64,000 nt of DNA from Elephas maximus indicus (Eukaryota; Chordata; Mammalia; Proboscidea; Elephantidae), in the NCBI RefSeq assembly GCF_024166365.1, contig NC_064831.1, forward strand, positions 26,154,768 to 26,218,767, read 5' to 3'. Made by a program: the position numbers and the translations under genes. The notes below the pieces were generated by a model. That model did no database searches and was not told where the DNA came from. It worked only from the letters and a program-made list of their open reading frames with translations. Numbering within the stretch: the stretch's first letter is position 1; the number at the start of each line of letters is the position of its first letter. Shown one piece after another: positions 9,986 through 35,337 of this stretch.

Positions 9986-10920
9986 GCTTAAGGTATACAA
10001 TTTTATGAATATATTATATATGTATTTTTTTTTCAGGGCTGAAGGGTATTGGTTTCTGGGTTTTACTATTAAAAACAGTGCTCTAAGATATATTCTTGAA
10101 ATTACATCTTTTGGAGCTTGTATATCTATAGTATATATTTTCTTTGTGAAAGTTTGAGATATAATTCACATACCTCAAAACTTACTTTTTAAAGTGTACA
10201 ATTCAGTGGTTTTTAGCATATTACCAAATTGTGGAAGAATTACCACTAATTCCAGAACATTTGCATCACCCCAAAAAGAAACTCCACACCCAGTAGCAGT
10301 CACTCTCTGTCCCTCCATCCCTCAGCCCCTAATAATCACTAATCTGCCCACTATAATCATGGATTTGCCTGTTCTGGATATTTAACACAAATGGAATCAT
10401 ACAACATGTGGTTCTTTGTGACTGGCTTCTAATATTTAGCATAATTTCAAGGTCCGTCTATTTCGTACCATGCACCAGTGCTTAATCCATTTTTATTGCT
10501 GAATAATAGTTCATTGTGTGGATATACCATACTTTGTTTTTCCATTTATCATTTTAGGGGCATTTGGGTTTTCCCCATTTTGGTAATTATGAACAATGCT
10601 GCTATGAGCATTCATGTGCAAGGTTTTTGTAGACATGTATTTTTATTTATCATGTGTGCATACCTGGAAATGGAAATTCTGGGTTGTATGGTAATTCCAT
10701 GTTTAATATTTTGAGAAACTGTCAAGCTATTTTTCACAGTAACTGTACCATTTTACATTCTCATCAGCAATGTATAAGGTTTCAATTTATCTACAGCCTC
10801 AATGTATGAGATTTCAATCATTCACATCACCAACACTTGTAATCTTCTGCCTTTTTAATTTCAATCATTCTAGTAAGTGTGAAGTTATATGTCTTTATGA
10901 TTCTGATTTGCATCTCTCTA

Positions 10921-11003
10921 GGAAATCCTGAGGGAAGTTCTACTCTGTCCTATAGGTTAGCTATGAGTCAGAATCAACTCAATGGGACACAACAATGACT
11001 AAT
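10921..11003 (+). mobile_element. AfroSINE fragment (shared), inverted copy
   Basis: Reads 'agttctactctgtcctatag' followed by 'gagtcagaatcaactcaatg'. It is the inverted counterpart of the fragments at 2,643-2,733 and 34,166-34,244, at the same site in the host L1. Confidence 0.8.
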
Positions 11004-11337
11004 GATTTTGTGTATCATGTACCTCTTGACCACTTGTATACTTTCTTTGAAGAAATGTCTATTCAACTCATTCCTCAGTTGTGTAATTGAATTATTTGTC
11101 TTTTGAAAAAAATTTTTTTTACTGTTGTAAAATATAGACAGCACCACATTTGCCAGTTCAACATTTCCTTCATATGTAATTCAGTGAGGTCAATTTCATT
11201 AATCATGTTGTACAAGCACCACCAATGTCCTTTGCCACATTTTCCAACCCATAAACAAAAATTCAATGCTTCATAAACAATAATTTCTCTCATACTCCTT
11301 TTTTCCTGCCCCTGACAGCCACTGTTAAACTATAAAA

Positions 11338-11504
11338 ACCCGCTAAACCAAACCCACTGCCATCGAGTCGATTCCGACTCATAGTGACCCCATAGGAGAG
11401 AATAGAACTGCCCCATAGAGTTTCCAAGGAGCACCTGGAGGATTTGAACTGCCATCCTCTTGGTTGGCAGCTGTAGCACTTGACCACTATGCCACCAGGG
11501 TTTC
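11338..11504 (-). mobile_element. AfroSINE private to unit A, antisense
   Basis: Nearly full-length AfroSINE. It is flanked by an 8-base target-site duplication, ctataaaa, at 11,330-11,337 and 11,505-11,512. The corresponding positions in C (near 2,310) and B (near 33,845) read straight through ('gttttataat') without a SINE. The insertion therefore came after the duplication. Confidence 0.92.
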
Positions 11505-11868
11505 CTATAAAACTATCGTCTCTATATATTCACCTATTCTATGCAGTTCATATTAGTGAGTTCATACAATATTTGTCCTTCTGTGATAAGCTTATTTCAC
11601 TCTGCATAATATTTCCAGGTTTTTTCTATGGTGTGTCCTGTATCAGAACTTCTTTTCCCTTCAGGACAGATTCCATTTTATGTGTATACTACGTTTGGTT
11701 TATGCAATAATCTGTTTCTGGGTATCTGGGTTGTTTCCACATTTTAGCTATTATGAATAGTGCTGCAATGAACATTGTTGTACATGTGTCTCTGGCACTG
11801 CTTTAAAGTCTCTTAGGTACATACCTGAGAATATAGTTTCGAAGTGATATAGTAGTTCTATGCTTTAC

Positions 11869-12475
11869 TTTTTTTTTGTCTTTTTTTTTAAATTGTGCCC
11901 TAAGTGAAAGTTTACAATTCAAGTCAATTTCTCATACAAAAACGTATACACGCATTGTTATGTGACCCTAGTTTCTCTCCCCGTAACGTGACAGCACACT
12001 CCTTCTATCCACCCTGTATTTCCCCTGTCTGTTCAACCAGCTCCTGTCTCCTACTGCCTTCTCATCTCACCTCCAGACAGGAGCTGCTCACATAGTCTCA
12101 TGTGTCTACTTGAGCTCAAAAGTACACTTCTCACCAGTATCATTTTATATCTTATACTCCAGTCTAATCTTTGTCTGAAGAGTTGGTTTTGGGAATGGTT
12201 TTAGTTTTGGGCTAACAGAGAGTCTGGAGTCCATGTCCCCTGGAGTCTGTCCTTTCTCAGTCAGACCCTTAAGTCTGGTCTTTTTTCTAGAATTTGAGGT
12301 CTACATCCCAGTTTTCTTGTGCTCCATCAGGGATTTTCTGTTGTGTTCCCTGTTAGAGCAGTCCTTGGTAGTAGCAGGGTACCATCTAGTTCTACTGATC
12401 TCAGGCTGATACAGTCTCTGGTTTACTTGGCCTTTTCTGTATGTTGGGCTCATATTTTCCTTGTGTCTTTGGTAT
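11869..12475 (-). mobile_element. Lineage-specific L1 3'UTR private to unit A, antisense
   Basis: It starts at a T-rich tail and matches the 3'UTR of the L1 at 38,342 onward ('gacagcacactccttc', 'ctctggtttac'). Imperfect 9-base target-site duplications flank it: atgctttac at 11,860-11,868 and atgcttcac at 12,476-12,484. Units B and C lack this insertion. It is a 5'-truncated fragment without coding sequence. Confidence 0.85.
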
Positions 12476-12551
12476 ATGCTTCACTTTTTGAGGAACTGCC
12501 AAAATGTTTCCCTCAGCGGCTGTACCATTTTGTGTTCCCACCAGCAATGGA

Positions 12552-13656
12552 ATAAAAGTTTGCTGAAGATAATTCAAAAATGGTTTCAGCAGTACATCAA
12601 CAAGGAACTGCCAGAAATGCAAACTGGATTTCGAAGAGAATGTGGAACGAGGGTTATTGTTGCTGATGTCACATGGATCTTGGCTGAAAGCAGAGAATAC
12701 AATAAAGATGTTTACATGTGTTTTATTGACTATGCAAAGGAATTCGACTGTGTAAACCACAATGAATTAATGGATAACCTTGAGAAGAATGGATATTTCA
12801 AAGCAATTAATTGTGCTCATGCAGTACCTGTAAATAGATCAAGAGGCCATCTTTCAAACAGAACAAAGGGTTACTGAATGGTTTAAAATCAGGAAAGGTG
12901 TGCATCAGGATCGTGTCCTTTCAACATACTTATTCAATCTGTCTGCTGAGCAAATAATCTGAGAAGCTGGACTATATTAAGAAGAATATGGCATCAGGAT
13001 CGGAGGAAGACTCATGAGCAACCTACTGTATCCAGATGACATACCCTTGTTTGCTGATAGTAAAGAGGACTTGAAGCAACATCATGATAAATGGGGAATA
13101 GGTTGAAATTGTCAAGGATTTCATTTTACTTGGATCCACAATCAATGCCCATGGAAGCAACAATCAATAAATCAAATGATGTATTGCATTGAGCAAATCT
13201 GCTGTAAAAGACTTCTTTAAAGTGTTAAAAATCAAAGTTATCTACTTTGAATATTAAGGTGCATGTGAAGGCTGGACAATGAATAAGGAAGACTAAAGAA
13301 GAATTGATGCCTTTGAATTATGGTATTGGTAAAGAGTACTGAATATACCATGGACTGCCAGAAGAACAAATAAATCTGTCATGGAAGAAGTACAGCCAAA
13401 ATGCTCCCTAGAAGCAATGATGGTGAGACTTCATCTCACATAGTTTATACATGTTATCCGGAGGGACCAGTCCCTGAAGAAGGACATTGCACTTTGTAAA
13501 GTCAGGGAAAAAGGAAAACTATCAATAAGATGGATTGATGCAGTGGCTGCAACATGGGCTCAAGCATAGCAACAATTGTGAGGATGGTGCAGGACCAGAC
13601 AGTGTTTCATTCTGTTCATCACAGGGTCTCCATTAGTATGTAGCAATAACAAAAAG
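12552..13656 (+). mobile_element. RTE-type LINE, sense, with readable reverse-transcriptase core
   Basis: This is the clearest RTE RT fragment in the window. From about 12,552 to 12,815 the plus-strand frame reads through IIQKWFQQYINKELPEMQTG, then WILAESREYNKD and CFIDYAKEFDCVNHNE. FIDYAKEFD carries one of the catalytic aspartates of the RT. Downstream the frame breaks repeatedly, although 'tatccagatgac' near 13,030 matches the region of the second catalytic motif. The 3' tail ends near 13,656. It is the inverted counterpart of 641-1,892 and 32,220-33,433. Confidence 0.88.
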
Positions 13657-16191
13657 CAGTAATGGATGAGGATTCTGATTTCTCCACATATTCGTGTAAA
13701 AGAAAGAATTTAGACCGGTACCTCACACAATATAGAAGAAAGTAACTTCAAATGGATCAAAGAGCCTAGTGTACAATTTAAACCGTAAAATTCTTAAAGG
13801 ATTATTTTTCTTTTTGTTCTTGAATTAAGACATTTTCCATATTCTGCATACAAGCTTCTTATCAGATACATGACTTACAAATTATTTGCGCATTCTATGT
13901 TTTACCTTCTTACATTTTTGATAGTCATTTTAAGCACCAGCTTTTTTTATGATTACGATTTATCTATTTTTTGTCACTTGCACTTTTGCTGTCATATGTA
14001 AAAAACAATTGTCTTACCAGTTACTCAATAGGCCATGGGTCAAAGAAGAAATTTAAAAAATTAGAATATATTTGTAATGGGATTAAAAAATACAAATTCG
14101 AGGAAGACTCAACAGCATTAATTAGGGGGAAATCCATAGCACTAGATACCTATGTTAAAAAAATAAAATAAAATCATACTTTGAAATCAATGACTACAGC
14201 TTCAAACTTAAGTAATGAGAAGAGTAAGTTTACTGAAAGTAAACAGGAAAAGAAATGACAGTGAAAATCCATTAGACTATAAAAAAGACTATAGAAAAGC
14301 CATAAATAAAATCAAAGAAACCAAATCTGACTGTCTGAGAGGATCAATAAAATAGACAAATTTCCAGGAAAACTGATCAGAGAGAGAAAAAAAAGACAAA
14401 ACACTAACATTTTGGATAAGAAAAGAAGCATACTGACAGTTTCTATATATACTAAAAAGATAGAAACGGAATTCTAGGTTTTTTTTATTTGCTTGTTTGT
14501 TTTTGAACAAAGATTTAAACAACTTAGATGAAATGGAAAAAATCCTGGAAATAAACAAATTATCAAAGTTTATGCAAGAAGATGTAGACAACATGGGTAT
14601 CCTTATATCCATCTAAAAATTTAAAATATAGATTTTAAAAAAAGTATTACCTTCTTTCATTCTTTTGTAAATTCTAACAAACATTTAGGAAGATGTCTTT
14701 TTTGGTGAATTCTGCAAAAATTTAAGAAAGACATAATACCAATTTTACAATAACTTGGAAAAAATTAGAGGAGGGGATACTTTGCAAATAATTCTATGAG
14801 GTTAGATTTACCCTGATACTAGTTCCAGTCAAAACACATAAAGAAAAAAAATTAAAAATGAGTAAAGCACATGAACATGGATTCTAGCATATTCTAAATA
14901 AAATTTTACCAAATTGAATCTAAAAATATGTAAGAATGCTAATAGATTATAACTAAATGGGTTTACCCCAAAAATGCAGATTTTGCTTAATATTTTTTTA
15001 AAAAGTTTAACCGTGTTAACAAACTTAAAAAAGAAAAATATGTGATCATTATAGTAGATTCAGAAAAAGCATCCTTAATTGAAAAAAAAAAAAAAAAAAA
15101 AAAAACAGCAATAGAAAGGATCTTCCTCAACCTGAAGAATTTATTCGTAAATCCTGCAGCTAACATTATGTTTAGTATTAGAACATTGAACATTTCCCCT
15201 GCAAGATCAGGAAAAAGACAAGGGTTTTTATTCTCATCGCTTCTATTCAAAATTGTACTAGTGGTTATAACCAGCACCAGAAAGCACAAAGAAAATAAAT
15301 AAAAAAAGGAATCCCACTGAAAAGAAAAAAAATCAATAAAAAAGAAGAAAGTCGTCAGATTGGAAAGGAAGGAATAAATCTGTTCTTTAGAAAACATGAT
15401 TCTTTATGTAAAAAATCTGATGAAATCTACAAAAGTCTGCTGGAATTAATAGCTGACTTTAACAAATTTGAAAGATACAAGACCAATACATAAATATGAA
15501 TTATAATCCTCATTTGCTGGTAATGAGCAAACAGAATCTGAAATTATAAAGATTATATCATTTACAACAGCAAGCTAACTGTTAAACACTGTGGATTAAT
15601 TTGGGGGGAGAAAGTGTGAAATACTTGTAAACTGAAAACAAACAAAGCTGAGAGACATTTTAGAAGTTCCAAATAACTGGAGAGATAAACTGTGTTAGTG
15701 GGTTGGAAATATCAATATTGCTAAGATTTCACGTTGCATTTATTTCCAAGTTGATGTACAGATACAACCAAATCCCAATAAAAATTCTAATTTTTTTTTT
15801 GTTGAAAAAGGCACACTGTTGCTAAAATTCATATGGGAATTTAAAAAAAAAACAAAACTAAAATAGCCAAAATAGATTTTCAAAAGAAGAAAAAAGTTGG
15901 ATAAGGTACACTGTCTAATTTAAAGCCTTTAAAATTATGGCAATCAAGACAGTTTGGTACTTGTACAAAGGTTGTTAAATGTATGAACAGAGGACCATAA
16001 AAAGATCATAAATAGTACCACATATACACTGGCAACTGACTTTTTACAAAGGAGCAATGGCAATTCAATGGATAAAGGACAGCCTTTTCAAAGAATGGTT
16101 CTGAATATGTAAAAAAAAAATTTTTTTTGATCTAGATCTTGAAACACATAAAAAATTAGCTCAAATGATCATAGACCTAAATTTACACCTA
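13657..16191 (+). mobile_element. Old L1 ORF2 segment, sense (unit A)
   Basis: Several stretches match mammalian L1 ORF2. They include 'gaggatcaataaaatagac' near 14,340, 'ccaaatcccaataaaaattc' near 15,770, 'aatcaagacagtttggtac' near 15,942 and 'aattcaatggataaaggac' near 16,060. Stops and indels are dense, and a run of about 24 A lies at 15,081. The inverted counterpart is 29,587-32,219. Confidence 0.75.
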
Positions 16192-17064
16192 TTGCTGTTG
16201 TTGTTAGGTGCCCTAGAGTTGGTTCCAATGCAGAGTGATCTTGTATATAAAAGAACAAAATGTTGTCTGGGCCTTAGTCATCCTCATAATTCTTATTACG
16301 CTTGAGCCCATTGTTGGAGCCACTGTGTCAGCCCATCTCATTGAGAGTCTTCCTGTTTTTTGCTGACCCTTTACCAAGCATGATGCCCTTCTCCAGAGAC
16401 TGGACCCTCCTGATAACATGCTCAAAGTAAGTGAATCAAAGTCTTGCCATCCTCACTTCTAAGGAGCATTCTGTCTATGCTTCTTCCAAGACAAATTTGT
16501 TCATTCTTCTGGCAGTCCATTGTCTATTCAATATTCTTCACCAACACCATAATTCAAAGGCATCAGTTCTTCTTTGGTCTTCCTTATTCACTGTCCAGCC
16601 TTCACATGTATATGAGCCAATTGAAAACACTATGGCTTGGGTCAGGCATACCTTATTCCTCAAAGTGACATCCTTGTTTTTTAACGCTTTAAAGAAGTGT
16701 TTTGCGGCAAATTTTCCCAATGCAACACATCCTTTGATTTCTTGATTGCTTCTTCCATGGGCATTGATTGTGGATCCAAGTAAAATGAAATCCTTGACAA
16801 CTTCAGTCTTTTCTGCATTTATTATGATGTTGCTTATAGGTTCAGTTGTGAGAATTTCTGTTTTCTCTGTGTTGAGTTATAATCCATAGTGAAGGCTATA
16901 GTCTGATTTTCATCAGTAAATGCTTCAAGTCTTCTTTACGTTCAGCAAACAAGGATGTGTCATCTGCATATTGCAGGATGTTAATGAGTCTTCCTCCAAA
17001 TCTAATGTCTTTTTCTTCTTCATGTAGCCCAGATTACTGGACTGTTTGTTCAGCATTCAGATTT
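16192..17064 (-). mobile_element. RTE-type LINE, antisense (unit A)
   Basis: It begins with 'ttgctgttgttgttaggtg' and runs to 'ctgtttgttcagcattcag', after which L1 resumes. Minus-strand frames keep decayed RTE C-terminal protein (for example CEGWTVNKEDQRRTDAFELW at 16,538-16,720). The inverted counterpart with the same junctions is 28,721-29,586. Confidence 0.88.
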
Positions 17065-17305
17065 ACAGCTAAAACTACAGAAGAAAATGTAGGAGAAAAC
17101 ATTTGCAACTTTGGGTTAGACAAAGATTTTTTTAGAGAGGACAATGGAGAAAAATGATTTATAAATAAATAAATTGGGTTTAATTAAACTTTAAACTTCT
17201 GTTCATTTAAGAACATTCTTAAGACAATCCGAAGATAAGCCAGTGCCTAGGAGAAGATATTTGCAAATCATATATCTCATAACAGGCATGCATTCAGAAG
17301 ACACA
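17065..17305 (+). mobile_element. Old L1 segment, right end of unit A
   Basis: 'gagaagatatttgcaaatc' followed by 'atatatctcataacagg' is the L1 ORF2 C-terminal region in sense. The matching inverted sequence is around 28,490-28,720. Similarity stops where the next L1 begins at 17,306. Confidence 0.7.
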
Positions 17306-18732
17306 AGGAGGCAGGGTCAAGATGGCAGAGTAGTCAGACATTTCCTGTGGTCCTTCTTAAAACAAAGACCACCCCCTCCCCCAGAAAAGTGAATTGATTA
17401 TATTTGAAAATCTAGGAGCACTGAACATCAAAGGCAAAGTTGAGGAATTGGACTGAGTAGCAGAGGGAGGGAGAAATGAATCAGAAGCAGCAAGGAGTTG
17501 CCAAACCTGACCCAGGGGGAACCAGCACCCTGCAGGTACATTCCGCTGCCACAGGAACAGTGGGCAAGCAGCGGCATTCCAGATGTATTTTTCACATCAG
17601 GAGAGAACAAGCAGTGGAGAAGTCTGCTCAGCCCTCTATAACAAACAAGAAGCTGCCCTCAATTGGCAAAAGATAAACACCTGCATTTAACCTACTGAGC
17701 TGATCCAAAAACACCCCTTTAGGAAAAATCTTTCTCCTACTGATGTGCTCCTATCCCACTCTGCACTGGGTCCCAGCCAGCTGCACCCCCTGGGCCAGAA
17801 GAAGGACACTTCCCTAGCCCTGAGTCATTCTCCTGACCTTGGAGAGGGAACAAATTAACAAACAGGGAAAAAAATAATCTGCCAGCTCCCCTAAACCAGG
17901 AACTCAGGGCAGAAACAGCTCCTTTCTCTAAGCACAAGCATAAGAAATCCACAGGTTCTGAAAGCCTTTCACCCCTACATAGACCTGTGTGGGCCCACTA
18001 AAACAGCATAGGCCTTCATTAGCACAGTACAACAGAGCATATACCTGAAGTCTAACTTCAGCTGTTTCAGCTACATGGTGGAGAAGCAAGTTTGTGACAT
18101 ATGACACCGCTATGCCTATTAAGCAGGGTGCTCACCTACCCACATCAGGGGCCTGAGGACTAGTGTCTCCACCCACAACATCTAGCCACCCACGACAGGG
18201 GCCCAAGAGTAATTGGTGCTTCACAGTCCTTACAGCCAACAGCACTAGGTGCTCGTAGTCTGGCTGCAAACTCATCCACCTAGTGCACTAGGGAACAGGG
18301 AAACACTTTCCCCACAGACACTCAGGTGCGATTGTCAGCCCCCGGCCTTTCTCAGCACGTGACCCCCTACTGCACCCAGATAACTGTGCCTACACCAAAC
18401 ACCCCTTGTGGTCTAGGACTGTAGGTGAGGGTCCGAACCACACATTTGGTGACTGACTACCTGGACACCTGAGCTGAATTGATAAACGAAAAGTGAATGG
18501 ACTCCTGGGATCACATACCTAGTAACAGCTCTAACCACATGGTGACAGGATGTTAGAGCTTCAAAGGTGCCAATAATCAAACTGTCTTACTCGAGCACCA
18601 TACTTGGACATACCAAAAACAAAACAAGAAGCTAGGACACAGTAAGCAAACATAAAATAAGTACATACAATAACTTATTGATGGCTTGGAGACAACAGTC
18701 AATATCAAATCACATAAAGAGACAGATTCACG

Positions 18733-19690
18733 ATGGCTTCAGCAAGCTCCCCAAAAAAGAATCAAGAAATTTTGCAGATGAAGAGAACTTCCTGGAATTA
18801 CTGAAGATAGAAAACAGAAGATTAATATACAAAACTCTTTAAGAGATCAGGAAGGAGATCAGGCAAAACACAGAGCAAGCCAAGCGGTACACAGCCACCA
18901 GTACATAACATTAGAGGAACTAAAACAGATTACACCAGAGCATAATGACAAATGTAATAGGCTGCAAGAATCCACAGAGAGCGATCAGAAATTCAGTGGA
19001 ATAACAACAAAATTTCAAAATTAGATAATTCAATAGAAAGTCAGAAGAGCAGAATTGAAGAAATGGAAGTCAGAATTAGTGAGATTGAAGTTAAAGTACT
19101 TGACACCAACATATTCGAGGAAAAATCAGATAGAAGAATTTAAAAACATGAGGAAACACTAAGCATTATGTGGGACACTATCAAGGGAAATAAATTAAGA
19201 GTTACTGGAGTACCAGAAGAGGGTAGGATAACAGAAAATACACAGAGAAATGTAAGATTCGTTGGCAGAAAACTTACCAGATACTGTGGAAGATGATATC
19301 TATCCAAGATGCTCATTGAACCATGCACAAGGTCGATCCCAAAAGAAGTCACCAAGACATATTATAATTAAACTTTGCAAAACCAAAGATAAAGAGAGAA
19401 TTTTAAAAACAACTAGGGATAAACAAAAGCCACCTGCAAAGGAGAGTCAATGAGACTAAGCTCAGACTATTCAGCAGAAATAATGAAGGCAAGAAGACAA
19501 TGGGATGATATACATAAAGCCTTGAAGGAAAGAAATTGTAAGCCAAGATTACATATCTAGCAAAACTCTCTCTCAAATATGCAGGTGAAATTAGGACATT
19601 TCCAGATAAACAGAAGTTTAGGGAATTTCCAAAAACTAAACCAAAATTACAAGAAATAGTAAAGAGAGTCTTCTGCTTAGAAAGTCAATA
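18733..19690 (+). pseudogene. L1 ORF1 remnant (nucleic-acid-binding protein p40-like)
   Basis: The reading begins at the ATG of 'atggcttcagcaagctcc'. A coiled-coil-like acidic/basic stretch follows near 19,030-19,130, then an RRM-like region with IMWDTIKGNKLRVTGVPEE around 19,165-19,225, and the C-terminal domain with RHIIIKLCKTKDKERILKTT near 19,350-19,420. In the family this protein forms trimers that coat L1 RNA. Several stops and frameshifts, for example a TAA at about 19,140, show it is dead. The C-terminal continuation past 19,450 resembles older L1 ORF1 types. Confidence 0.75.
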
Positions 19691-20110
19691 ATATCAGATA
19701 ATAACCCAAACCTAGAACACAGCACAGAACAACCAGATATCAACCCAGATAGGGAAATCACAAAAACAATTCAAAGCTAAAATGTTCAAAACAGGAAAAC
19801 AGTGATGTCATTATATAAAAGATGACAACATTAAAACAAAACAGAGGGACTAAGAAATGTAGTCATATAGCTTTCATATGGAGAGGAAGTCAAGGCAATA
19901 TAAAGAAATAAAGATTGATTTAATGTTAGAAAAATAGCAGTAAATATTAAGGTAATCTCAAAGGAAACAATCATACTGCTCAAAACAAAAAACATGAGAA
20001 ACATAATGACTCAGCAAATACAAAATCAACAACACTGAAAAAGAGGAAAAGACAACATATAAAGAAAAATGACTGCACAGAAAATTAAGGGGAAAAAGAA
20101 ACTCTCAACA

Positions 20111-20137
<27 letters not shown>
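20111..20137. repeat. (AC)n microsatellite
   Basis: About 13 AC units lie between the ORF1 and ORF2 remnants of the L1 at 17,306-21,060. Confidence 0.95.
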
Positions 20138-20141
<4 letters not shown>

Positions 20142-20149
20142 ACATCAAA

Positions 20150-21060
20150 ATGACAGCACTAAACTCATACCTATCCATAATTACACCAAATGTGAATGAA
20201 CTAAATGCACCAATTAAGAGACAGAAAGTGGAAGAATGGATTAAAAAAAAAAAATCCATCTATATACTGCCTACAAGAGATTCACCATAGACTTAAAGAC
20301 ACAAACTAAAAAAAGGATAGAAAAAAATGTATCAAGCAAACAACAATAAAAAAAATCAAGCAAAATGAGGACAAGTGGCAATATTAATTTCTGACAAAAT
20401 AGAGTTTAAAGTAAAATCCACAGCAGAGGATAAGGAAGGACACAAAATAATGATAAAAGTGTCAAATACCAGGAGGATATAACCATATTAATATTTACGC
20501 ACCCAATGACAGCGCTCCAAAATACATAAAACAAACTCTAACGGCATTGAAAAGAGAGAGACGGCTCCACAATAATAGTAGATTTCAACACATTACTTTC
20601 AGTAAAGAACAGAACATCCAGAAAGAAACTCAATAAAGACAGAGAAGATCTAAATGCCACAATCAACCAACTTGACCTCATAGACATATACAGAACACTC
20701 CACCCAACAGCAGCCAAGTATGCTTTCTTTTCCAACATATGTGGAATATTCCCTAGAATAGACCACATATTAGGCCATAAAGCAAGCCTTAACAGAATCC
20801 AAAACATTGAATTTTACTAAGCATCTAAAAGTAGAAATCAATAATGGAAAAAGCAAGGAAAAAAATCAAACACACAGGAACTGAAAAACACCTTGTTCAA
20901 AAACTGCTGGGTTATAGAAGAAATTAAGAATGAAATAAAGAAATTCCTAGAATCAAATGAGAATGAGAACATTTCCTGCTGGAACCTTTGGGACATGCAA
21001 AAGCAGTGCTCAGAGGTCAATTTATAGCAATAAACAAACACATTCAAAAAGAAGAAGGGG
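20150..21060 (+). pseudogene. L1 ORF2 remnant, endonuclease portion only
   Basis: From the ATG at 20,150 the frame reads MTALNSYLSIITPNVNELNA, the usual start of L1 ORF2 endonuclease, and stops at 20,288. Later stretches stay recognisable in shifted frames. The segment ends near 21,060 with 'gcagtgctcagaggtcaat' and following sequence. The reverse transcriptase and Cys-rich C-terminus are absent. Confidence 0.8.
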
Positions 21061-22429
21061 CCAAAGGGCCATGTGTTTGCTCAACAACAACAATAAATAA
21101 AATCTGGTTAAAAAATAAATACAGCACACGTTATATTTCAAGAGTATGTTTTGAAGTATGAAAGCTTACGTCTAATGCTGATTTTATCTCATGTTACTCC
21201 AGATATTTACTCTTAAGTCTTAAAGACACTTTTAAGACTTCTTACACATGGTTAAGAAAAAGAAACTTTTAAAGTGCACTGAAATCTAGCTTGCTTATTT
21301 TCCTTTCTAAAGAGAATGCCTGGTAGTTAGGTGAACATATATTTCTTCTCATCACAGCAATCTTCTGAAGGCAGAGTTCCAAAACTATCTCCTTATTCCT
21401 GTCATATTCCATCCTTTGCTGTGTTTATTAGAATCCTTGGGTTCATTTTGTTATTAGAAAACACTTTCAAATAGGGTTTTTATTTACCCATGTTGTTGTG
21501 GATGTTATTTTTGATAAGTTGTGGATGATATTTTTATGTCAATTATGTGTTTAGAATCATAGTACTTGATTTCTAGGGAAGAAAGTTTATGTCAGTTCTC
21601 CCAAATTGAATACTAGAATCAAATCCATGTTATGTTCCTATATGGACTCCAAACCATTTCAGCTGGACTTCAGGGAATATTAGGGCAAATGGCAAAGTCC
21701 ATGGAATTAGTTTACATTTTATTAAAATTCTTACTTCTCTAATTACTCTCTGAATGATATCTTAATGGTTTTCTTTCAATATCTAAATTTCATAATTCCC
21801 TTATATATTAATTGGGAAATAAATTAAAAAAATTTTTTTTAATATGCCCTGTAGGAATATTTCAAAGATTAAAGAAGTAAACATTTTTGCATATAATATA
21901 TATTTAATACATGGCATATTTTGAAAAATTATGATAGTTTATATATTAGTTGTCATTATATTCAAAAAGATATAAAGCAAAAAAATTCCATTTCTTTTTC
22001 TACTTTTTACTATGAAAATTCAACTGAGTAAAAATGTAACCTAAAAGATATTACAGAATATATCTAAAGAATATGTTTCTATCCTTGATTTTGATTAGGA
22101 CTCCAGAAGGCTAGAAATTCGACCAATATCTGTCACTTTTGATTTCATGCATTCGTGATCTGGAGCAATGACCTTGAACCTGGAATAAAAGCAGATAAAA
22201 TATGAGGTGAATCTCTTTCTGTTAAAACTTGCAGCCTTGAAACATAATTATGGCATACTTATTATCTTATGGATAGGCATCACATTATAACTTAAATTTA
22301 AAAATTCATTTTAAACCCATTTAAATGTGTTCGACAAGACATTGTTTCTGAGACTCTGAATATCATACGTGTAATTTATACATTTACCATATGTATAAAA
22401 TATGTACCTCTCATTTTTTTATTTTAAAT
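21061..22429. other. No recognisable feature
   Basis: AT-rich sequence with no convincing ORF and no repeat I can name. The old unit A/B sequence does not resume here after the L1, so the right flank of unit A is either deleted or was never part of the copy. Confidence 0.5.
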
Positions 22430-23888: not shown

Positions 23889-24073
23889 TAAAGCAAAAAA
23901 AAACAAAAAACAAAAAACAAAAAACAAGCCCATTGCCGTCGAGTCGATTCCAACTCATAGCTACCCTATAGGACAGAGTAGAACTGCCCCATTAAGTTTC
24001 CAAGTAGCACCTGGTGGATTCAAACTGCCAACCTTTTGGTTAGCAGCTGTAGCACTTAACCACTACTCCACTT
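23889..24073 (-). mobile_element. AfroSINE, antisense, with A-rich tail
   Basis: An A-rich (CAAAAAA)n tail at 23,895-23,926 leads into 'cccattgccgtcgagtcg' and runs to the head 'gtagcacttaaccactac'. It is near full length. Confidence 0.9.
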
Positions 24074-24840: not shown

Positions 24841-25261
24841 GGCCTTGGGTTTTTGATCTTTTATTTTATGTATCAATGTGTTACAGTGCAACCACAAATG
24901 CTGCATCTCGAAAAGCACCCAAAACCTTTGGATCTAAGACTGTAAAGTTCTCTTATATGTAATTTATATATGTCATTAATAACTGACAAAAATGTCATTC
25001 ATAATTTTATTTATTTATTTATTTTTGGTGAGAATTCTTTCCTCATGTGAGATTCTGTGGTACTGACAGTTCCAGGAAAAGATGGCCTTTGGTGAGATGA
25101 AAACACTTATTAGCTCATTTATTCACAAGGACATTTATGTCTTGTCTATTATATTCTTCCTTTTAAGATAAAATAATATTACTACACCCTGATTATTTTA
25201 TTATAAGTAATAATTTTAAAACAGCAACTACTATTTTATATGAAAATGACTTACTTTACCC
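24841..25261. other. No recognisable feature
   Basis: AT-rich, including a short (TTTA)n run at about 25,005-25,025. No gene seen. Confidence 0.45.
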
Positions 25262-25483
25262 TCCTGTACTATTGGAATAGTCTGGGTGGCACAAATGGCC
25301 AAGCGCTTGGCTGCCAACTGAAAGGTTGGCGGTTTGAGCCTACCCATTGGCAACTTGAAAGAAAGACCTGGCCATCTGTTTCCAAAAAATCAGCCATTGA
25401 AAACCCTATGGCTCTCAGTTCTACTTTGCACACATGGCATCTCCAAGAGTCAGAATCAATGTGACAGCAACTGGTTTTTGTTT
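25262..25483 (+). mobile_element. Divergent AfroSINE-related SINE, sense
   Basis: The head 'ggtggcacaaatggccaag' and box B-like 'ggcggtttgagcctaccc' are AfroSINE-like. The body ('gaaagaaagacctggccatc') and the tail ('gtcagaatcaatgtgacagc') differ from the short type and resemble the body of the tRNA-Gly-headed SINE at 53,071. It may be an older or intermediate subfamily. Confidence 0.75.
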
Positions 25484-26887
25484 TTGCTTTTTAATGTTGG
25501 AATGACTTTGTGATTTGATTCAAGACATAGGTTCCTTAGGCTTTAAAATTAATATCCAAAATAAGGAGTTATGTTATACTCTGCCCATTATGAAATCAAG
25601 GTGTAATCAAACACATCCAGTCTGTGGTGTGAAGTGGCATCACTGAGAAAGTTTATTTGAATCCCTACTCTCAGCCAAGTGCTAATCTAGTTGGTCGAGT
25701 TAGAGTAGTGAAGTAAATATTACAGTTGTTCCTGTCCTGGAAGCTGAAACTTATGTAAAAACAACCAACCAAAAAATACCCTCGCATTTATATTTGGAGA
25801 TGTTATCTGAAGAAAAGAAAAAGTCAAAAGAAGTACAAACTAATTAAAGTTTTATGAAATTCTGAAGAGCTGAAGAACTGAAGGTCTGGTAATGAATTTT
25901 AGTGGTATAAATTTTAAGAGGACAAGGGTAGAGTTCATAAGACGAGAGAGTCAATCCACGTTTATTTTGCATTTACTCTGTGTAAACCTGTCATATTCTA
26001 TGTTATTTACTGTTCCTCATATGTTTATTTCCACTTTGTGCAGAGTAACAGAGTTTTTGTAAATTTACAAATGATAAATGCACAAATAAGCACACACATT
26101 TTGAAATGATGGCATGCGTGCTTCAGCTCTTTTGCTTGTTGTCTCTTTTTAGTTGTTGTCGTGTGCTTTTCCATGGCTAACTGTATAGATCAACAATAGC
26201 CGAGTCATCATTTCTCTAGCAATTATGAACATTCCTCTTAAACACTGCTTCATCCAGTGCTTAATTTTCTGTGAATGGGATTCGCACCCCTCAATTGAAT
26301 TCCTCATTATTTATAGGTCAATCAATTTTAAATACACTCCTTGAATATGTTTTCTTTATCATGTTATCCTACTAAATTTGTAGTAATCTGCTACAATTGC
26401 AATAGGAAACTAATACAATGTGAGAAAACAGTGGGAATGAATAGATTTTACACACATGATCAAGTCAATTTGCCAATATTCCCAGCCAAGAATAATAATT
26501 CTTATAGAGCAAAACTAACAAAGTAGCTATGCACTGGGTGTTCTCGTGTCCATCATTGTTCTCTGATTTTGAGATTTACTAAAAAAAAAAAAAAACAGGA
26601 ATGTGAAGATATGACTGTAAATAGATCATAGATGCCTTTTCCATGTTTTATTGAAGTGATTAGAATTAAAAAAATACAGTGATACCTTAATAGATGCAGA
26701 CGATTTATGCATGAATACCTATTTATTTCTGATTTGTTTCCCTAGTAGCATAAACATTTCATAGTACATGAATGTATTGGACCAAAACATTATACCCAGG
26801 ATCACAGACAGAACTTCTTCAATACCTCGTGAAGATCTCAAATATAATTTCATGTGTTTAAGCACTAAATAATATTGACTGGCGACA
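25484..26887. other. No recognisable feature
   Basis: About 1.4 kb upstream of the first OR pseudogene, without a supported gene. An A-run sits at about 26,581-26,594. Any untranslated leader exon of the OR locus would be expected here or further upstream, but I cannot identify one. Confidence 0.45.
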
Positions 26888-27000
26888 TTTTTTTTCTCTC
26901 TCTCACTTCCTTGCCTTCTCCCGTTCTTCTTCTTTTTCTCATCTTTCTTCTGCTCCTTTTTCTCCTTCTTGTTCTTCTGTCTCTCTGTCTCTTGTTTTTG
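26888..27000 (+). repeat. Pyrimidine-rich tract just upstream of the OR start
   Basis: About 110 bases almost wholly C and T on the plus strand end roughly 10 bases before the OR ATG at 27,010. Minus-strand translation gives an artefactual Arg/Glu-rich ORF. It may have functioned as a splice-acceptor tract, but no clear AG acceptor was confirmed. Confidence 0.8.
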
Positions 27001-27009
27001 CTGTACTTA

Positions 27010-27935
27010 ATGATGAATTTTTCAGCTGTCTCATCGTTTGTTCTACTTGGATTCGGAGGGGGTCCAGGGATGCAGGCAATACTATTTCTGATCTTTTGAT
27101 CTTGCATGTCTTATCTGTGGTTGGGAACTTTGGCATGATCGTAATTATCAAGGTGTACTCCCACCTCCACACCCCAATGTATGTCTTCCTCCAAAGCCTT
27201 TCCTTGTTGGACATCTGCTATTCTTCCACAATTGCACCTCGGGCTCTGGTGAACTTCTTGCAGAAAGACCACACAGTTTCCTTTGATGGGTGTGCAGCAC
27301 AATTTTTCTTTCTGTCTCTTTTCGGTACCACAGAGGCCTTCCTCCTGGCTATTATGGCCTATGACTGCTACATCGCCATCTGTAACCCCCTGCAGTAATC
27401 TGTGAGTATGTCTCACCAAGTCTGTGTATGCTTGGTGGTGGGGTCCTACTTACGGGGTTTAGTGAATGCTGTCACTCAAACAATGATGACTTTCACATTG
27501 CCCTTTTGTGGGTCCAATGAGATCAATGACTTTTTCTGTGATGTACCTCCACTCTTGTCCCTCTCATGCTCAGATACATTTATAAACCAATTGGTTCTTC
27601 TTGGTTTATGTGGCTCCATTATTGTCAGTACATCCCTGATTGTATTGGTCTCATACATCTGCATCATATCAGCAATTCTGAGGATCCATACTGTGCAGGG
27701 ATGCCAAAAAGCTTTCTCCACCTGTGCCTCCCACCTAACTGGGGTGTGCTTGTTTTTTGGTACCGTTTTCTTCATGTATGCACAACCCAGTGCTATCTTC
27801 ACCATGGATCAGAGTAAAGTGGTGTGCATCTTTTACACTATCGTCATCCCCATGTTGAACCCCCTGATATACAGCCTGAGGAACAAAGATGTCAAACAAG
27901 CTCTGAGGAGCAGCAGGCAGAAGTTCTCTTTGTGA
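27010..27935 (+). pseudogene. Olfactory receptor pseudogene, class II, OR5/8/9-like
   Basis: An odorant-binding seven-helix receptor in origin. The ATG at 27,010 or 27,013 starts MNFSAV with an N-glycosylation sequon. Visible family motifs in order: GNFGMI in helix 1, LHTPMY after it, [10 protein letters not shown] at the end of helix 3 (the usual R of DRY is C), FFCDVPPLL in loop 2, KAFSTCASHL in helix 6 and PMLNPLIYSLRN in helix 7. Two lesions break it. One T is missing from a T run at 27,094-27,097, shifting the frame after helix 1 begins. An in-frame TAA sits at 27,396-27,398, just after the helix-3 motif, where family members have Tyr. The rest is open to 27,935. OR9H1, a pseudogene recalled from the matching human cluster, is a candidate ortholog, not proven here. 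Confidence 0.9.
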
Positions 27936-28139
27936 TTACTGTGGCTGTGAATCTCATAAACTGTCCTGGGCTTCTCTGGAAATCACTGCTACTAAATGGA
28001 TTATGTTTTTCAAATCTGGCATTCATGAGTTTTTTTAGTTTAACTATTGAAGTCTGTGATCTAGAAGGTAGAGTGTATTTTAATTATATTTATATGTCCA
28101 CCAACAAACAGAAATCTAGAACTTATGCTAAATAAAGTG

Positions 28140-28720
28140 TTGTAAACTGGAAAAACAGACGATTGAATGGATACAAACTGCAACACTCTTCTTCAAAGTT
28201 CTTCCATCTCATGTGTCTAGCATCAGCTTGTGAGAATTTCATGTCTTCCATATCCTCATTAATTTTGGTGTAATCCATTTTATTTTAGTCATTCTTGTAG
28301 CAGTGTGGTGCTATCTCATTGTGGTTTTGAGATGCTTTTCATAAATGACAAATAATGTTGACCATCTTTTAAGGTATTTGTTTTTCATCTGTATATCTTT
28401 GCTTGGTGAAGTATCTGCTTAAATCATCTGCTCATTATATTTCATCAGATTGTTAATATTCTTACTATTGAGATCTGAGAATTCTTCATGTCTTCTCAAT
28501 GCATGCCTGTTATGAGATATATGATTTGCAAGTATTTTCTCCTAGGCACTGACTTATCTTTGAATTATCTTAAGAATGTTCTTAAATGAGCAGAAATTTA
28601 AAGTTTAATTAAATCCAATTTTATTTATAAATCATTTTTTCCATTGTCCTATCTAAAAAGTCTTTGCCTAACCCAAAGCCACAAAAGTTTTCTCCTATAA
28701 GTTTTATAGTTTTAGCTGTA
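28140..28720 (-). mobile_element. Old L1 3' portion, antisense, left end of unit B
   Basis: 'agtgtggtgctatctcattg', 'aatgttgaccatctttt' and 'gagatatatgatttgcaag' are antisense L1 C-terminal/3'UTR stretches. From about 28,480 the sequence is the inverted match of 17,065-17,305. Confidence 0.7.
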
Positions 28721-29586
28721 AATCTGTATGCTGAGCAAATAATGCAGTAATCTGGCATATATGAAGAAGAACAAGACATTAGATTTGGAGGAAGACCCAT
28801 TAACAACCTGTAATATGCAGATAACACAACCTTGTTTGCTGAAAGTGAAGAGGACTTGTAGTACTTACTGGTGAAAATCAAAGACTATAGTCTTCAGTAT
28901 GGATTATACCTCAATATAAAAAAAAAAAAAAAATCCTCACCACTGCACCTATAAGCAATATCACAATAAAAGAAGAAAAGTTTGTAGTTGACAAGGATTT
29001 GCTTTTATTTGGACGCACAAATCAATGCCCATGGAAGCAGCAAACAAGAAATCAAAAGATGTATTACATTGGGAAAATTTGCTGCAAAACAGCTCTTTAA
29101 AGTGTTTAAAAGCAAAGATATCACTTTGAGGAATAAGGTGTGCCTGAATCAAGCCATGATGTTTTCAATTGCCTCATGCATGCAAAGGCTAGACAATGAA
29201 TAAGGAAGACCAAACAAGAACTGATGCCTTTGAATTATGGTGTTAGTGAAGAACATTGAATATACCACGGACTGACAGAAGAACAAACTGTCTTGGAAGA
29301 AGTACAGCCAGAATGCTCTTTAGAAGTGAGCATGGCAAGACCTAGTCTCACTTACTTTGCACATATTATCAGGAGGGGCCAACCCCTGGAAAAGGACGTC
29401 GTGCTTGGTAGTGGGTTGGTGAAAAAGAGGAAGACTCTCGACAAGACACAGTGGCTCCAGCAATGGGCTCAAGCATAAAAACGATTGTGAGGATAACTCA
29501 CACCTGGGCAACATTTTGTTCTGTTACATAAGATCACTAAATTTTGGAACCAACTCAAAGGCACCTAACAACAACGACAACAACAG
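28721..29586 (+). mobile_element. RTE-type LINE, sense (unit B)
   Basis: Runs from 'tgtatgctgagcaaataatg' to the 3' tail 'gcacctaacaacaac'. It is the inverted counterpart of 16,192-17,064, with the same L1 junction at both ends. An A-run near 28,918-28,933 is private to this copy. Decayed protein remains in plus-strand frames. Confidence 0.88.
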
Positions 29587-32219
29587 GTATAAATTTAGGT
29601 CTATGATAACTTGAGTTAATTTTTTATGTGATGTGAAATCTAGATTTTTTTCACATATTCAGAATCATTTCTTGAAAATACTGTCCTTTATCCATTGACT
29701 TGCTATTGCTCCTTTGTAAAAAGTCAGTTGCCCATGTATATGTGGACCTATTTATGAAATTCGTATTGTCTTCCATTGATATATATATTAATCTTTATAC
29801 CAATACCAAACACTCTTGATTGCCATAATTTTATAAACCTTCAAATTAGACAGTGTATCTCATCCAAATTTTATTCTTTTAAAAATCTATTTTGCCTATT
29901 TTATTTATTTCAATTCCCATATGAATTTTAGAAAGTTGCCTTTTTCAACAACAAAAAAAAAGGTATTGGAATTTTTGTCGGGATTCAATTTAATCTGTAC
30001 ATCAATTTGGAAATAAATGCCACCTGACATCTTAACAATATTGCGATTTCCAACCCACTAACACTTTTTTTTTTTTAACACAGTTTCTCTCTCCAGTTAT
30101 TTAAAATTTCTATAATGCCTCTCACGGGCAGTTCTACTCTGTCCTATAGGGTTGCTATGAGTCGGAATCAACTCAACGGCACTGGGTTTGGGTTTATAAT
30201 GCCTCTCAGCTTTGTTTTCAGTTTACAAGTATTTCACACTTTCTCCCCCCAAATTAATCCATAGTATTTAACATTTTTCTGGCTGCTTTAAATTATATAA
30301 TATTTATAATTTCAGTTTATGTTTATTCATTACCAGCAAATTAGAATTAAAATTAATTTTATGTATTGATCTTGTATCTTTCAAACCTGCTAATGTGTTA
30401 TTTTTTAATGTCAGTTATTAATTCCACCAGATTTTTGTAGATTTTCTCAGATTTTCTGCATAAAGAATTATGTTATCTAAAAAAAAAAAAAAGTATAGCT
30501 TTATTCCTTCCTGTCCAATATGATGACTGTCTCTCTTTTTGTTGATTTTTTTTTTCTTTTTCAGTGGGATTCCTTTATTTATTTGTTTTTCCTTATATTT
30601 TCTTGCACTGGCTATACCCACTAGTACAATTTTGAATAGCAGTGATGAGAATAGAAATCCTTCTCTTGATCCTGATCTTAGGGGAAAAATATTCATTGTT
30701 CTAATATTAAGCATAATGTTAAGCTGTAGAATTTATACATATAGCCTTCCTGTTGAGTAAACTCATTTCTAATGCCTGGGTTTTTTTTTGTTTGTTTTAA
30801 ATCAAGGATGCCTTTTTCTGAATCTACTATGATGATCACTTTTTTTTCCTTTTTAATTTTGTTAACATTGTTAATTAAACTTTTTTTTTAATATTAAACC
30901 AAATATGCATTTTTTGGGGTAAATCCATTTAGATATATTATTATCCTTATATATATTTTGAATTAAATTGGGTAAAAGTTTATTTAAAATATGTTAGAAT
31001 CAATGTAAATGTGGGATACTCATTTTTAATTTACTTTCTTTATATGTTTTGACTGGATCTAGCATCAGGCTAATGCTAACCTCATGGAATTATTTGCCAA
31101 GAATCCCCTCCTCTAAATTTTTATAAGACTCATTGCAAAATTGGTATTATTTCTTCCTTAAATTTTGATAGAATTCACCAATAAGGCATATTCCTAAATG
31201 TTTGTTAGAATTCACCAAAGAACGCAATAAAGTTTTTTTTTTTAATCTATAATTAAAATTTTTAGATAGATATAGGGATACTCATGTTATCTATATATTC
31301 TTGCATAAACTCTGGTAATTTGTTTATTTCTAGGAACTTTTTCATTTCATCTAAGTTGTCCAAAACATTGGCCATAAGCAAACAAATAAATAAACCCCTA
31401 GAGTTCTGTTTCTATCCTTTTAATATATATGGAAAATGTTAAGTATGCCCCTTTTCTTATCCAAAATGTTGGTGTTTTTTTTTTTTTTTCCTGAGCAGTT
31501 TTCCTGGAAATTTATCTATCTTACTGATCCTCTCAGACAACCAGCTTTTGGTTTCCTTGGTTTTATCTATTGTTTTTCTATAGTCTATTTAACAAATTTT
31601 CACTTCAACATTTATCATTTCGTTTCTTTTCTGTTTCCTTTCAGTGAATTCACTCTTATTTTTCTCCTTACTTAAGGTCGAAGCTGTGGTAGCTGATTTG
31701 GAAGTGTCCTTTTTATATCTTTTCTAACAGAGCTAGAAAATTCCATTAATTAATTCCCCTAATAGATGCTATAGAGTCTGCCTCAAATTTGTATTTTTTA
31801 TCTTATTCCAAATATATTCTAACACGTCTTTTAACTTCTTCGACCCACGTGCTGTTAAGAAAGCAGTAAGACAATGGATTCGTACATATTACAGCAAAAG
31901 TACAAGTAACAAAAAAAGATTGTAATCATAAAAAAAGTGCTTAAAATGACATCATCAAGAATGTGAAAATGCAAAACATAGAAATGACAAGGAATCTGTA
32001 AATCATTTATCTGGTAAGAAACTTGTATGTAGAATATAAAGAGAAGTCTCAAATTTGACAATATAAAGAAAAATCCTTTAAAAATTTTATGTTTTAAGTT
32101 GTACATTAGGGTCTTTGATCCATTTGGAGTTACTTTTTGGTGTATTATGTGAGATATGGGTCTAACTTCATTCTTTTACATGAATATATAGAGAAATCAA
32201 AATCCTCATCCATTACTGG
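29587..32219 (-). mobile_element. Old L1 ORF2, antisense (unit B)
   Basis: Antisense L1 ORF2 matching 13,657-16,191 in inverse orientation. Shared stretches include 'attcccatatgaatttta' near 29,911 and 'actttctccccccaaatt' near 30,240 (the inverse of 'aatttggggggagaaagt' at 15,599). It contains a private 5'-truncated SINE at 30,125-30,194. Unit C at 1-640 matches the right part in direct orientation. Confidence 0.75.
30125..30194 (+). mobile_element. 5'-truncated AfroSINE private to unit B
   Basis: Only the 3' half of the SINE is present ('gttctactctgtcctatagg' to 'cactgggtttgggt'). A perfect 14-base target-site duplication, tataatgcctctca, flanks it at 30,111-30,124 and 30,195-30,208. The inverted counterpart near 15,650 in unit A has an uninterrupted site. 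Confidence 0.93.
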
Positions 32220-33433
32220 TTGTCGTTTTTGCTAGGTACTGTTAAGTTGGTTCCAATTCATAGTGACCCTGTGTCCAACAGAATGAAACACTGTCTGGTC
32301 CTGCACCATACTTATGATTGTTGCTATGTTTTAAGCCCATCTTGCAGTTCCTGTATCAATCCATCTTGTTGACAGTCTTCCTCTTTTTCCCTGACTTTAC
32401 CAAGCATGGTGTCCTTTTCTAGGGACTGGTCCCTCCTGATAACAGGTACAAAATATGTGAGACGAAGTCTCACCATCCTTGCTTCTAGGAGACATTCTGG
32501 CTATACTTCTTCCAAGAGAGGTTTGTTTGTTCTTCTGGCAGTCCATGGTATATTTAATATTCTTCACCAACGCCAAATTTGAATGCATCAATTCTTCTTC
32601 AGTCTTGAAAATACCATGGCTTGGGTCAGGTGCACCCTACTCTTCAAAGTAGATGATTTTGCTTTTTAATACTTTAAAGAAGTCTTTTACAGCAGATTTG
32701 CCCAATGTAATACATCGTTTGATTTATTGACTGTTGCTTCCGTGGTCATTGATTGTGGATCCAAGTAAAATGAAATCCTTGACAACATCGATCTTTTCCC
32801 CATTTATCATGATGTTACTTATTGGTCCAGTTGTGAGGATTTCTGTTTTCTTCACCTTGAGATATAATTCATAGTGAAGGTTGTAGTCTTTGACTTTCAT
32901 CAGTAAGTGCTTCAAGTTCTCTTTACTTTCAGCAAACAAGTTTATGTCATCCGCATATAGCAGGTTGTTAACGAGTCTTCCTCCAATCCTGATACCATGT
33001 TCTTCTTAATTTAGTCCAGTTTCTCAGACTATTTGCTCAGCATACAGATGGAATAAGTGTGTTGAAAGAATACAACCCTGATAACATCTTTCCTGATTTT
33101 AAGCCTTTCAGTAACCCTTTGTTCTGTTTGAAAGATGGCCTCTTGGTCTATTTACAAGTACTGCATAAGCATGATTTAGCGTTCTGGAAGATCCATTCTT
33201 CTCAATGTTATCCATTGATTTGTTATGATCTACACAGTACAATGCCATTGCATAGTCAATAAAACACAGGTAAACGTCTTTGTGGCATTCTCTGTTTTTA
33301 GCCAAGACCCATGAGAGATCAGCAATGATATCCCTCATTCCACATCCTCTTCTAAATCCAGCTTACATTTCTGGCAGTTTCCTGTTGATGTACTACTGTA
33401 ACTGTTTTTTAATTATCTTTAGCAAAATTTTAC
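32220..33433 (-). mobile_element. RTE-type LINE, antisense (unit B)
   Basis: The direct counterpart of 641-1,892 and inverted counterpart of 12,552-13,656, with the same L1 junctions. Minus-strand translation at 33,108-33,338 keeps RT sequence (LCFIDYAMALYCVDHNKSMD), with the FIDYAKAFD-type motif partly altered. Confidence 0.88.
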
Positions 33434-34165
33434 TCCATTGCTGGTGGGAACAAAAAAAATGGTACAGTTTGGCCGTTCCTTAAAAAGTGAAGCACAGAGC
33501 TAGGATATGGCCTAGAAATTATTTTCTCAGGTATGTACCTAAGAGAATTTAAAGCAGTGACACAGACACATGGACAAAAATGTTCATTGCAGAACTCTTC
33601 ATAAGATCTAAAAGGTGGAAACAATACAAATACCCATAAACAGATTATTGGATAAATAAAATGTGGTAAACACATAAAATGGAATCTTGTCCTAAAGAGA
33701 AAGGAAGTCCTGATACAAGCCACAACATGGAAAAACTTTGAAAACATTATGCAGAGTTAAATAAGTCTATTGCAAAAGGACAGATGTCATATGAACTCAT
33801 TAATATGAAGTGCATAGAATAGGTAAATATATACAGAGCAGAGTTTTATAATGGTTATCAGGGGCAGAAGGGAAGGAGAATGAGAAGAGGCTTTGAGTTT
33901 TTGTTTATGGGGTTGGAAAATATGGCAAAGGACATTGGTGGTGCTTGCACAACATGATTAATGTAATTGATCTCACTGAATTATATATGAAAGAAATGTT
34001 GAATTGGCAAATGTGGTGATGTCTCTATTTCACAACAGTAAAGCAATTATTTTAATGACAAACTATTCAATTACACAACTGGGGAAAGAGTTGATTAGGC
34101 ATTTCTTCAAAGAAAGTATACAAATGGTCAATAAGTACATGAAAAGATACACAAAATCATTAGTC

Positions 34166-34244
34166 ATTGTTGTTGTTGTTCCATTGAGTTGATTCTGACT
34201 CATAACTTCCCTATAGGACAGAGTAGAACTTCCCTTAGGATTTC
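34166..34244 (-). mobile_element. AfroSINE fragment (shared), unit B copy
   Basis: 'tccattgagttgattctgac' to 'cttcccttaggatttcc', at the same L1 position as the fragments at 2,643 and 10,921. Confidence 0.8.
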
Positions 34245-35157
34245 CTAGAGAGATACAAATCAGAATCATAAAGACATATAACTTCACACCTACTAGAATG
34301 AGTGAAATTAAAGACAGAAAATTACAAGTGTTGGTGATGTGAATGATTCAGATCTCATACACTGCAGTTGTGGATAAATTGAAACCTCATACATCGCTGA
34401 AGAGAATGTAAAACGGTGCAGTTGCTGTGAAGAATAGTTTGAAAGTTCCTCAAAATACTAAACAGAGTTACCATATGACCCAGCAATTCCATTTCCAGGT
34501 ATGCACACATGATAAATAAAAATATATGTCTACAAAAACCTTGCACATGAATGCTCATAGCAGCATTCTTCATAATAGCCAAAATGCGGAATAACCAAAT
34601 GCCCCTAAAACAATAAATGGAAAAACAAAGTATGGTGTTTCCACACAATGAACTATTATTCAGCAATAGAAATGGATTAAGCACTGATGCATGGTTCAAA
34701 ATAGATGGACCATGAAATCATGCTAAATATTAGAAGCCAGTCACACAGAACCACATGTTGTATGATTCCATTTGTATTAAATATCCAGAATAGGCAAATC
34801 CATAAATACAGTGGGCAGATTAGTGATTGCTAGGGGCTGAGGGATGGAGGGAGAGTGGCTGCTACTGGGTGTGGAGTTTCTTTATGGGGTGATGAAAATG
34901 TTCGGGAATTAGGTAGTGGCAATTCTTCCACAGTTTGGTAAATATGCTAAAAATCACTGAATTGTACACTTTAAAAAGTAAGTTTTGAGGTATGTGAATT
35001 ATATCTCAATAAAACTTTTACAAAGAAAATATATACTATAGATATACAAGCTCCAAAAGATGTAATTTCAAGAATATATCTTAAAGCAGTCTTTTTAATA
35101 GTAAAACCCAGAAACCAATACCCTTCAATAAAGCCCTGAGTAACATATATATATATA

Positions 35158-35308
35158 CCCATTGCTGTCGAGGCGATTCCGACTCATAGCGACCCTAAGG
35201 ACAGAGCAGAACTGCCCCATAGAGTTTCGGAGGAGCGCATGGTGGATTACAACTGCCGACCTTTTAGTTAGCAATGGTAGCGCTTAGCCACTATGTCACC
35301 AGGGTTTC
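35158..35308 (-). mobile_element. AfroSINE private to unit B, antisense
   Basis: Near full length, inserted in an AT repeat. The duplicated flank is catatatatatata at 35,144-35,157 and again from 35,309. The inverted site in unit A near 10,010-10,030 lacks a SINE. Confidence 0.88.
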
Positions 35309-35337
35309 CATATATATATATATTCATAAAATTGTTC

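Follow-up and report, generated by a model that had tools for sequence, protein, structure and literature searches.

The 64-kb window analysed here, the whole 64,000-nucleotide stretch of Elephas maximus indicus contig NC_064831.1 from position 26,154,768 to 26,218,767, contains three neighbouring copies of one mosaic of transposable elements (TEs), arranged in the order C(+), A(-), B(+), as seen both in self-comparison and in directed comparisons of the units. Copies A and B are related by an old segmental duplication with inversion, an assignment in which we have high confidence, and the locus has the form of an inverted triplication, with three copies of which the middle one is inverted and the first (C) is cut by the window edge. 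The mechanism we consider most likely (probability about 0.45) is a single template-switch event producing an inverted triplication, followed by deletions and TE insertions at its junctions. An earlier note on this DNA had described two arms and a spacer; both arms are real, but that picture was incomplete, having overlooked the partial copy C at 1-3,501, which is evident from self-comparison, BLAST and alignment. The window does not reach the left end of C, and all figures for C cover its partial sequence only. The C/A and A/B spacers measure 5.8 kb and 11.2 kb, and the latter holds the 5' part of an L1 element (17,310-21,065) and an olfactory receptor (OR) pseudogene (26,862-27,935), both of which the note had correctly placed there.

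Read in the orientation of B, the unit is made up of an old minus-strand L1 (L1a), a plus-strand RTE copy nested within it (RTE1), the continuation of L1a, a minus-strand RTE copy (RTE2) and the 3' part of a plus-strand L1 (L1b), which carries a fragment of a short interspersed element (SINE). One L1a piece (30,418-30,732) matches human LINE-1 ORF2p with an E value of about 1e-5, while the remaining L1 stretches were assigned via the window's own L1 at 39,751-42,413; a piece of this L1 matches LINE-1 ORF2p with an E value of about 1e-48. The L1b piece in C matches LINE-1 ORF2p weakly (E 0.31), and tblastn backs its assignment to L1. RTE2 of A matches Pfam RVT_1 at 1.1e-4 with 22.4 bits, under the family cut-off of 29.6 bits. 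The names RTE and SINE family, as used for this locus, are our assumption, and the elements so named are presumably afrotherian.

Arms A and B are inverted relative to each other and remain collinear through the RTE and SINE edges. In BLASTN, A 17,303-10,015 aligns in reverse with B 28,489-35,157 as a chain of five adjoining pieces of 79-88% identity (Table 1). In the A/B/C alignment the homology reaches a few bases farther inward, ending at about A 17,309/B 28,483; in the raw sequences it resumes for ~16 bp beyond the private SINE that B has at the outer end, and so extends to about A 9,986/B 35,328. Gapless A-B identity in the A/B/C alignment is 85.5% over 6,349 sites (Kimura two-parameter distance, K2P, 0.163), or 86.3% over 6,233 sites once CpG sites are removed; this falls short of the roughly 90 percent estimated by eye in the earlier note, and agrees with its view that the event is old. 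C (1-3,280) matches B 31,588-34,810 directly (81.5% in BLAST, 86.0% of 3,120 gapless sites) and A 14,251-10,359 inversely; it lacks the segment A 10,358-9,546, and the C-A match picks up again at A 9,545 to 9,321 (83.6%). As a control, the units were compared with the rest of the window, yielding 72 matches (E up to 1e-5), of which the longest, RTE to RTE, spans 976 alignment columns against ~7 kb for the match between the arms. Catalogues of segmental duplications use a cut-off of at least 1 kb and 90% identity. The arms exceed this length and lie below this identity (85.5% vs 90%), while their homology runs collinearly through several TE edges, as in a segmental duplication; the duplication is older than those the catalogues list.

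The edges of the inserted elements are conserved between copies. The A-B alignment carries on past RTE1 on either side of it. RTE2 has its 3' edge in common between the copies, A having an 18-nt gap exactly there, and likewise its 5' edge, which is split in A by a private insertion and is placed within ~110 bp, between B 33,452 (RTE protein match) and 33,562 (L1 match). The small SINE fragment that the earlier note had reported in both units is real and occupies the same place in A, B and C; the three fragments match seven SINE copies of the window with E values of 6e-5 to 5e-14. The proposed shared set thus holds for the RTE copies and this fragment, whereas three other SINE pieces are each private to one arm. 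The private TE of A is flanked by a 15-bp direct repeat with one mismatch, and the SINE fragment at B 30,125-30,194 has the 14-bp direct repeat TATAATGCCTCTCA on either side. Conserved junctions, rather than matches inside TEs alone, are what the self-comparison and the alignment of A with the reverse of B reveal. The private TE of A is also one of four partial copies of an unnamed repeat (5953-6876, 11881-12473, 37640-38349 and 38343-39105; 66-77% identical in the matches found), the last two of which adjoin in opposite orientation.

When 11 RTE copies are placed in a tree, RTE2 of A, B and C group together as a clade with full support (ultrafast bootstrap/Shimodaira-Hasegawa-like approximate likelihood-ratio test, SH-aLRT, 100/100), the only well-supported one of 8 inner branches, and in a tree of 9 trimmed RTE copies the same clade (100/97) is again the only well-supported one of 6. 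Because of the shared TE edges, the empty sites opposite private insertions and this RTE2 clade, genomic duplication plus inversion accounts for the arms and repeated independent insertion does not, as the earlier note had proposed.

Table 1. Features of the 64-kb window, in window coordinates, and the five A-B BLAST pieces (identity with gaps counted)
Feature	Position	Strand or orientation	Remarks
Copy C	1..3501	+	partial, cut by window start; holds the remainder of L1a, then RTE2 and L1b; same orientation as B, opposite to A
Shared small SINE fragment, C	about 2,659-2,726		same place as in A and B
C/A spacer	3502..9320		SINE, RTE and unnamed-repeat fragments
Part of A matched by C only	9321..9545	-	C 3,278-3,501, 83.6%
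Copy A	9986..17309	-	inverted middle copy; in B orientation L1a, RTE1, L1a, RTE2, L1b
Shared small SINE fragment, A	about 10,914-10,985	-	strand as in B, presumed
SINE private to A	11345..11505	-	strand from presumed tRNA-like head; empty site in B and C
TE private to A, 593 bp	11881..12473		near RTE2/L1b junction; empty site in B and C
RTE2 in A	12475..13616	+	5' edge approximate
RTE1 in A	16192..17062	-	nested in L1a
Later L1	17310..21065	+	start (presumably L1 5' end) adjoins arm A end
OR pseudogene, A/B spacer	26862..27935	+	one in-frame stop, in the middle
L1a ORF2 (open reading frame 2) C-terminal part	28198..28598	-	extends from arm B beyond the stopping point of A
Copy B	28483..35328	+	same mosaic as A in opposite orientation
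A-B BLAST piece 1	B 28,489-30,124	reverse to A	81.6%
RTE1 in B	28722..29583	+	nested in L1a
SINE fragment private to B	30125..30194		empty site in A
A-B BLAST piece 2	B 30,195-32,820	reverse to A	79.2%
RTE2 in B	32220..33494	-	5' edge approximate
A-B BLAST piece 3	B 32,908-33,494	reverse to A	83.3%
A-B BLAST piece 4	B 33,482-33,850	reverse to A	83.2%
A-B BLAST piece 5	B 33,842-35,157	reverse to A	87.9%
Shared small SINE fragment, B	about 34,174-34,248		same place as in A and C
SINE in B, outer end	35158..35310		absent from A; ~16 bp of arm sequence after it
RTE fragment	35332..36287	-	lacks ~300 bp of its 3' end; joined to arm B outer end
OR pseudogene	about 47,213-48,273	+	spread over several frames
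OR6-like receptor	about 57,153-58,252	-	3' part split over two reading frames

The three copies are of about the same age, within the limit set by the inner branch, or have been homogenised, since their pairwise distances are nearly equal (K2P in the stretch common to all three: A-B 0.1653, A-C 0.1605, B-C 0.1569). Columns that single out one copy are likewise evenly distributed (A 209, B 203 and C 190 of 2,994 gapless columns), and in a block bootstrap (2,000 draws, clock assumed) the inner branch has an upper 97.5% bound that amounts to 5, 11 or 12% of the age, according to which of the three possible trees is taken. Gaps common to RTE2 of A and B (30 and 13 bp), considered as a sign that these two are sisters, appear as different overlapping deletions once other RTE copies are aligned. 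Assumed mammalian substitution rates of 1.2-2.2e-9 per site per year convert the K2P distance of 0.163 into roughly 37-68 million years.

The starting point was one genomic segment of at least 7.3 kb, already an L1 mosaic with two RTE insertions and the SINE fragment, and its local copying gave C(+), A(-) and B(+). Under the single-event model, one replication-based template-switch event would have flipped the middle copy to form the inverted triplication, and deletions and TE insertions around the palindromic junctions would then have shaped the present 5.8-kb and 11.2-kb spacers. The alignments show that the copies have decayed independently through substitutions, private insertions of SINEs and other TEs, and deletions. 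With the age given above, we tentatively view the locus as an inverted triplication preserved as a fossil for tens of millions of years, with three coeval arms at one germline locus. Among human and yeast inverted copy-number variants, triplications are described whose centre copy is inverted and whose spacers secondary rearrangement has widened (PMC10766186, excerpt), as are products in which the inverted triplication is flanked by duplications (DUP-TRP/INV-DUP; PMC4352052, excerpt). The elephant locus resembles the inverted triplication (TRP/INV) and DUP-TRP/INV-DUP structures of human MECP2 and PLP1 and of yeast SUL1 (ODIRA model) in its three local copies, inverted centre and junction spacers (PMC10766186 and PMC4352052, excerpts), but differs in being old and decayed (about 14.5% divergence), about 7 kb in size, and without recoverable original junctions or clear duplicated flanks. 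Fold-back inverted duplications share with it the inverted copies and the single-copy (disomic) spacer; those described, however, are large, two-copy and accompanied by terminal deletions, translocations or rings (PMC3907307, excerpt), whereas here three copies lie in a 64-kb window. Mammalian OR clusters with local duplications and inversions offer a similar OR-bearing setting (PMC1794568, excerpt), but the segment copied here is TE debris, and the arms were copied without any of the window's ORs.

Several observations weigh against this explanation. The flank duplication of DUP-TRP/INV-DUP structures was not found on comparing the two spacers and the right flank of B, the matches obtained being labelled by the analyst as repeats, L1 or OR family. 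One of the matches is ambiguous: A-side 6,679-5,953 and B-side 37,640-38,349 are 75.1% identical and are placed and oriented as a prolongation of the arms would be. Between it and the ends of arms A and B nothing significant was found (best E 0.063), and ~200 bp of it also occurs at 38,703-38,899 and 12,242-12,405; it was taken as a repeat family, and may alternatively be an eroded flank. The RTE1 copies of A and B are 84.2% identical and their fork in the tree is not resolved, while RTE1 compared with other RTE copies gives 75.4-82.7% in 13 of 14 comparisons and 86.4% (213 sites) in the remaining one. The RTE1 tree was therefore set aside as evidence of duplication, and what RTE1 contributes is its position and truncation, not its identity. 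Finally, gene conversion could also yield near-equal ages.

The ends of the copies carry the marks of later change. The L1 adjoining the inner end of A breaks off at about 21,065, with the part 3' of its ORF2 endonuclease region missing, and L1a in B outruns the end of A, so that the inner end of homology in A is probably a later insertion plus deletion rather than the first breakpoint. At the outer end of B, the join to an RTE fragment falls in a TTGT common to arm and RTE, and A-C homology in turn outruns the end of B. The visible ends of homology are later damage or unshared sequence.

A stepwise origin, by direct tandem duplications and inversion of the middle copy or by two inverted duplications close in time, is nearly as likely as the single template switch. 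It results in the same +/-/+ order, the age bounds allow steps separated by about 5-12% of the age, and both tandem duplications and inversions are reported for OR clusters (PMC1794568, excerpt). It needs, on the other hand, two or more events that by chance were nearly coeval, and no inner branch was detected in the trees or in the distance columns. A dispersed multi-copy duplicon, of which three copies happen to fall in the window, is unlikely: a burst would likewise give equal pairwise distances, but the copies are neighbours that alternate in orientation, and their ends vary between copies, at odds with a mobile unit with fixed ends. Least probable of all, and close to negligible, is the independent insertion of L1, RTE and SINE at three places in the same order by chance. 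The identity of the RTE1 pair does not by itself discriminate here, non-counterpart RTE copies being 73-86% identical to each other; independent insertion is ruled out instead by RTE and SINE edges common to the copies, with equal truncations and orientations. The L1 parts of the arms are moreover ~79-88% identical to each other and match other L1s of the window weakly or at the protein level, and the RTE2 clade argues in the same direction. An assembly artefact, haplotig or misjoin, is extremely unlikely, in that 85.5% identity and private insertions far exceed allelic difference or sequencing error.

The earlier note had also suggested that the arms can pair or recombine and invert the spacer, for which we find no present support. 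The geometry would suit a live inverted repeat that flips the OR spacer (inverted 7-kb arms, 11 kb apart), and the best 300-site A-B stretch is 95.7% identical. The longest identical A-B run is nevertheless only 64 bp, making present-day inversion of the spacer unlikely, and the arms carry unshared insertions. According to a review, recombination in mouse cells drops 20-fold between 232 and 134 bp, and lengths of 300-500 bp are given for human meiosis; events on under 114 bp and under 50 bp are also reported (PMC2583991, excerpt). Near-perfect tracts of a few hundred bp, such as favour non-allelic homologous recombination, are not found between A and B. A live repeat is thus very improbable; judging from the sequence, frequent inversion of the A/B spacer is unlikely, rare events being conceivable. 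The locus has the look of a mammalian segmental duplication of an ordinary type that has decayed, rather than of a structure in active recombination.

Toward the outer end the arms are more alike. The tract 10015-10520 has ~94% A-B identity vs the 85.5% average, a possible old gene conversion. The outermost 500 aligned A-B sites contain 31 mismatches and the lowest such window 28; in 300 shuffles no window had fewer than 43. Over A 10,520-10,359 the A-B pair is 93.8% identical (161 sites) vs 87.0% and 88.3% for the other pairs (154 sites each), while from A 11,331 to 10,520 all three pairs are at 89-90%. The low-mismatch tract may reflect past gene conversion or slow local change, and for recent A/B conversion at the outer end these values are suggestive only.

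The arms are relics for which we propose no present function, and no functional consequence of them is evident. A nested TE mosaic such as this one can act as a barcode that identifies duplications too old for the usual 90% cut-off. Should the single-event model be true, the locus exemplifies the survival and decay of an inverted triplication in the germline; as a fossil triplication, it would be a natural long-term record of the fate of palindromic template-switch products, including the opening of junctions by deletions and retrotransposon insertions.

The DNA identity of the spacer OR to the two other ORs of the window is 60.2% and 55.6%, far below that between the arms; the spacer OR thus was not copied together with the arms. 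Of 242 solved-structure matches to the receptor at 57,153-58,252, 60 were listed, and among these OR6-type receptors come closest to it; the receptor is possibly a young pseudogene.

Elsewhere in the window, RTE pieces of opposite orientation at 42469-43586 are split by a SINE, give an inverted self-match of 67% over 497 columns, and adjoin 42,466, the start of a minus-strand L1. A tRNA-like match to Rfam RF00005 (37.9 bits) lies at 53072-53141, where ARAGORN (bacterial code) made no call, and is perhaps a SINE head. A perfect (TA)25.5 microsatellite occupies 54219-54269.

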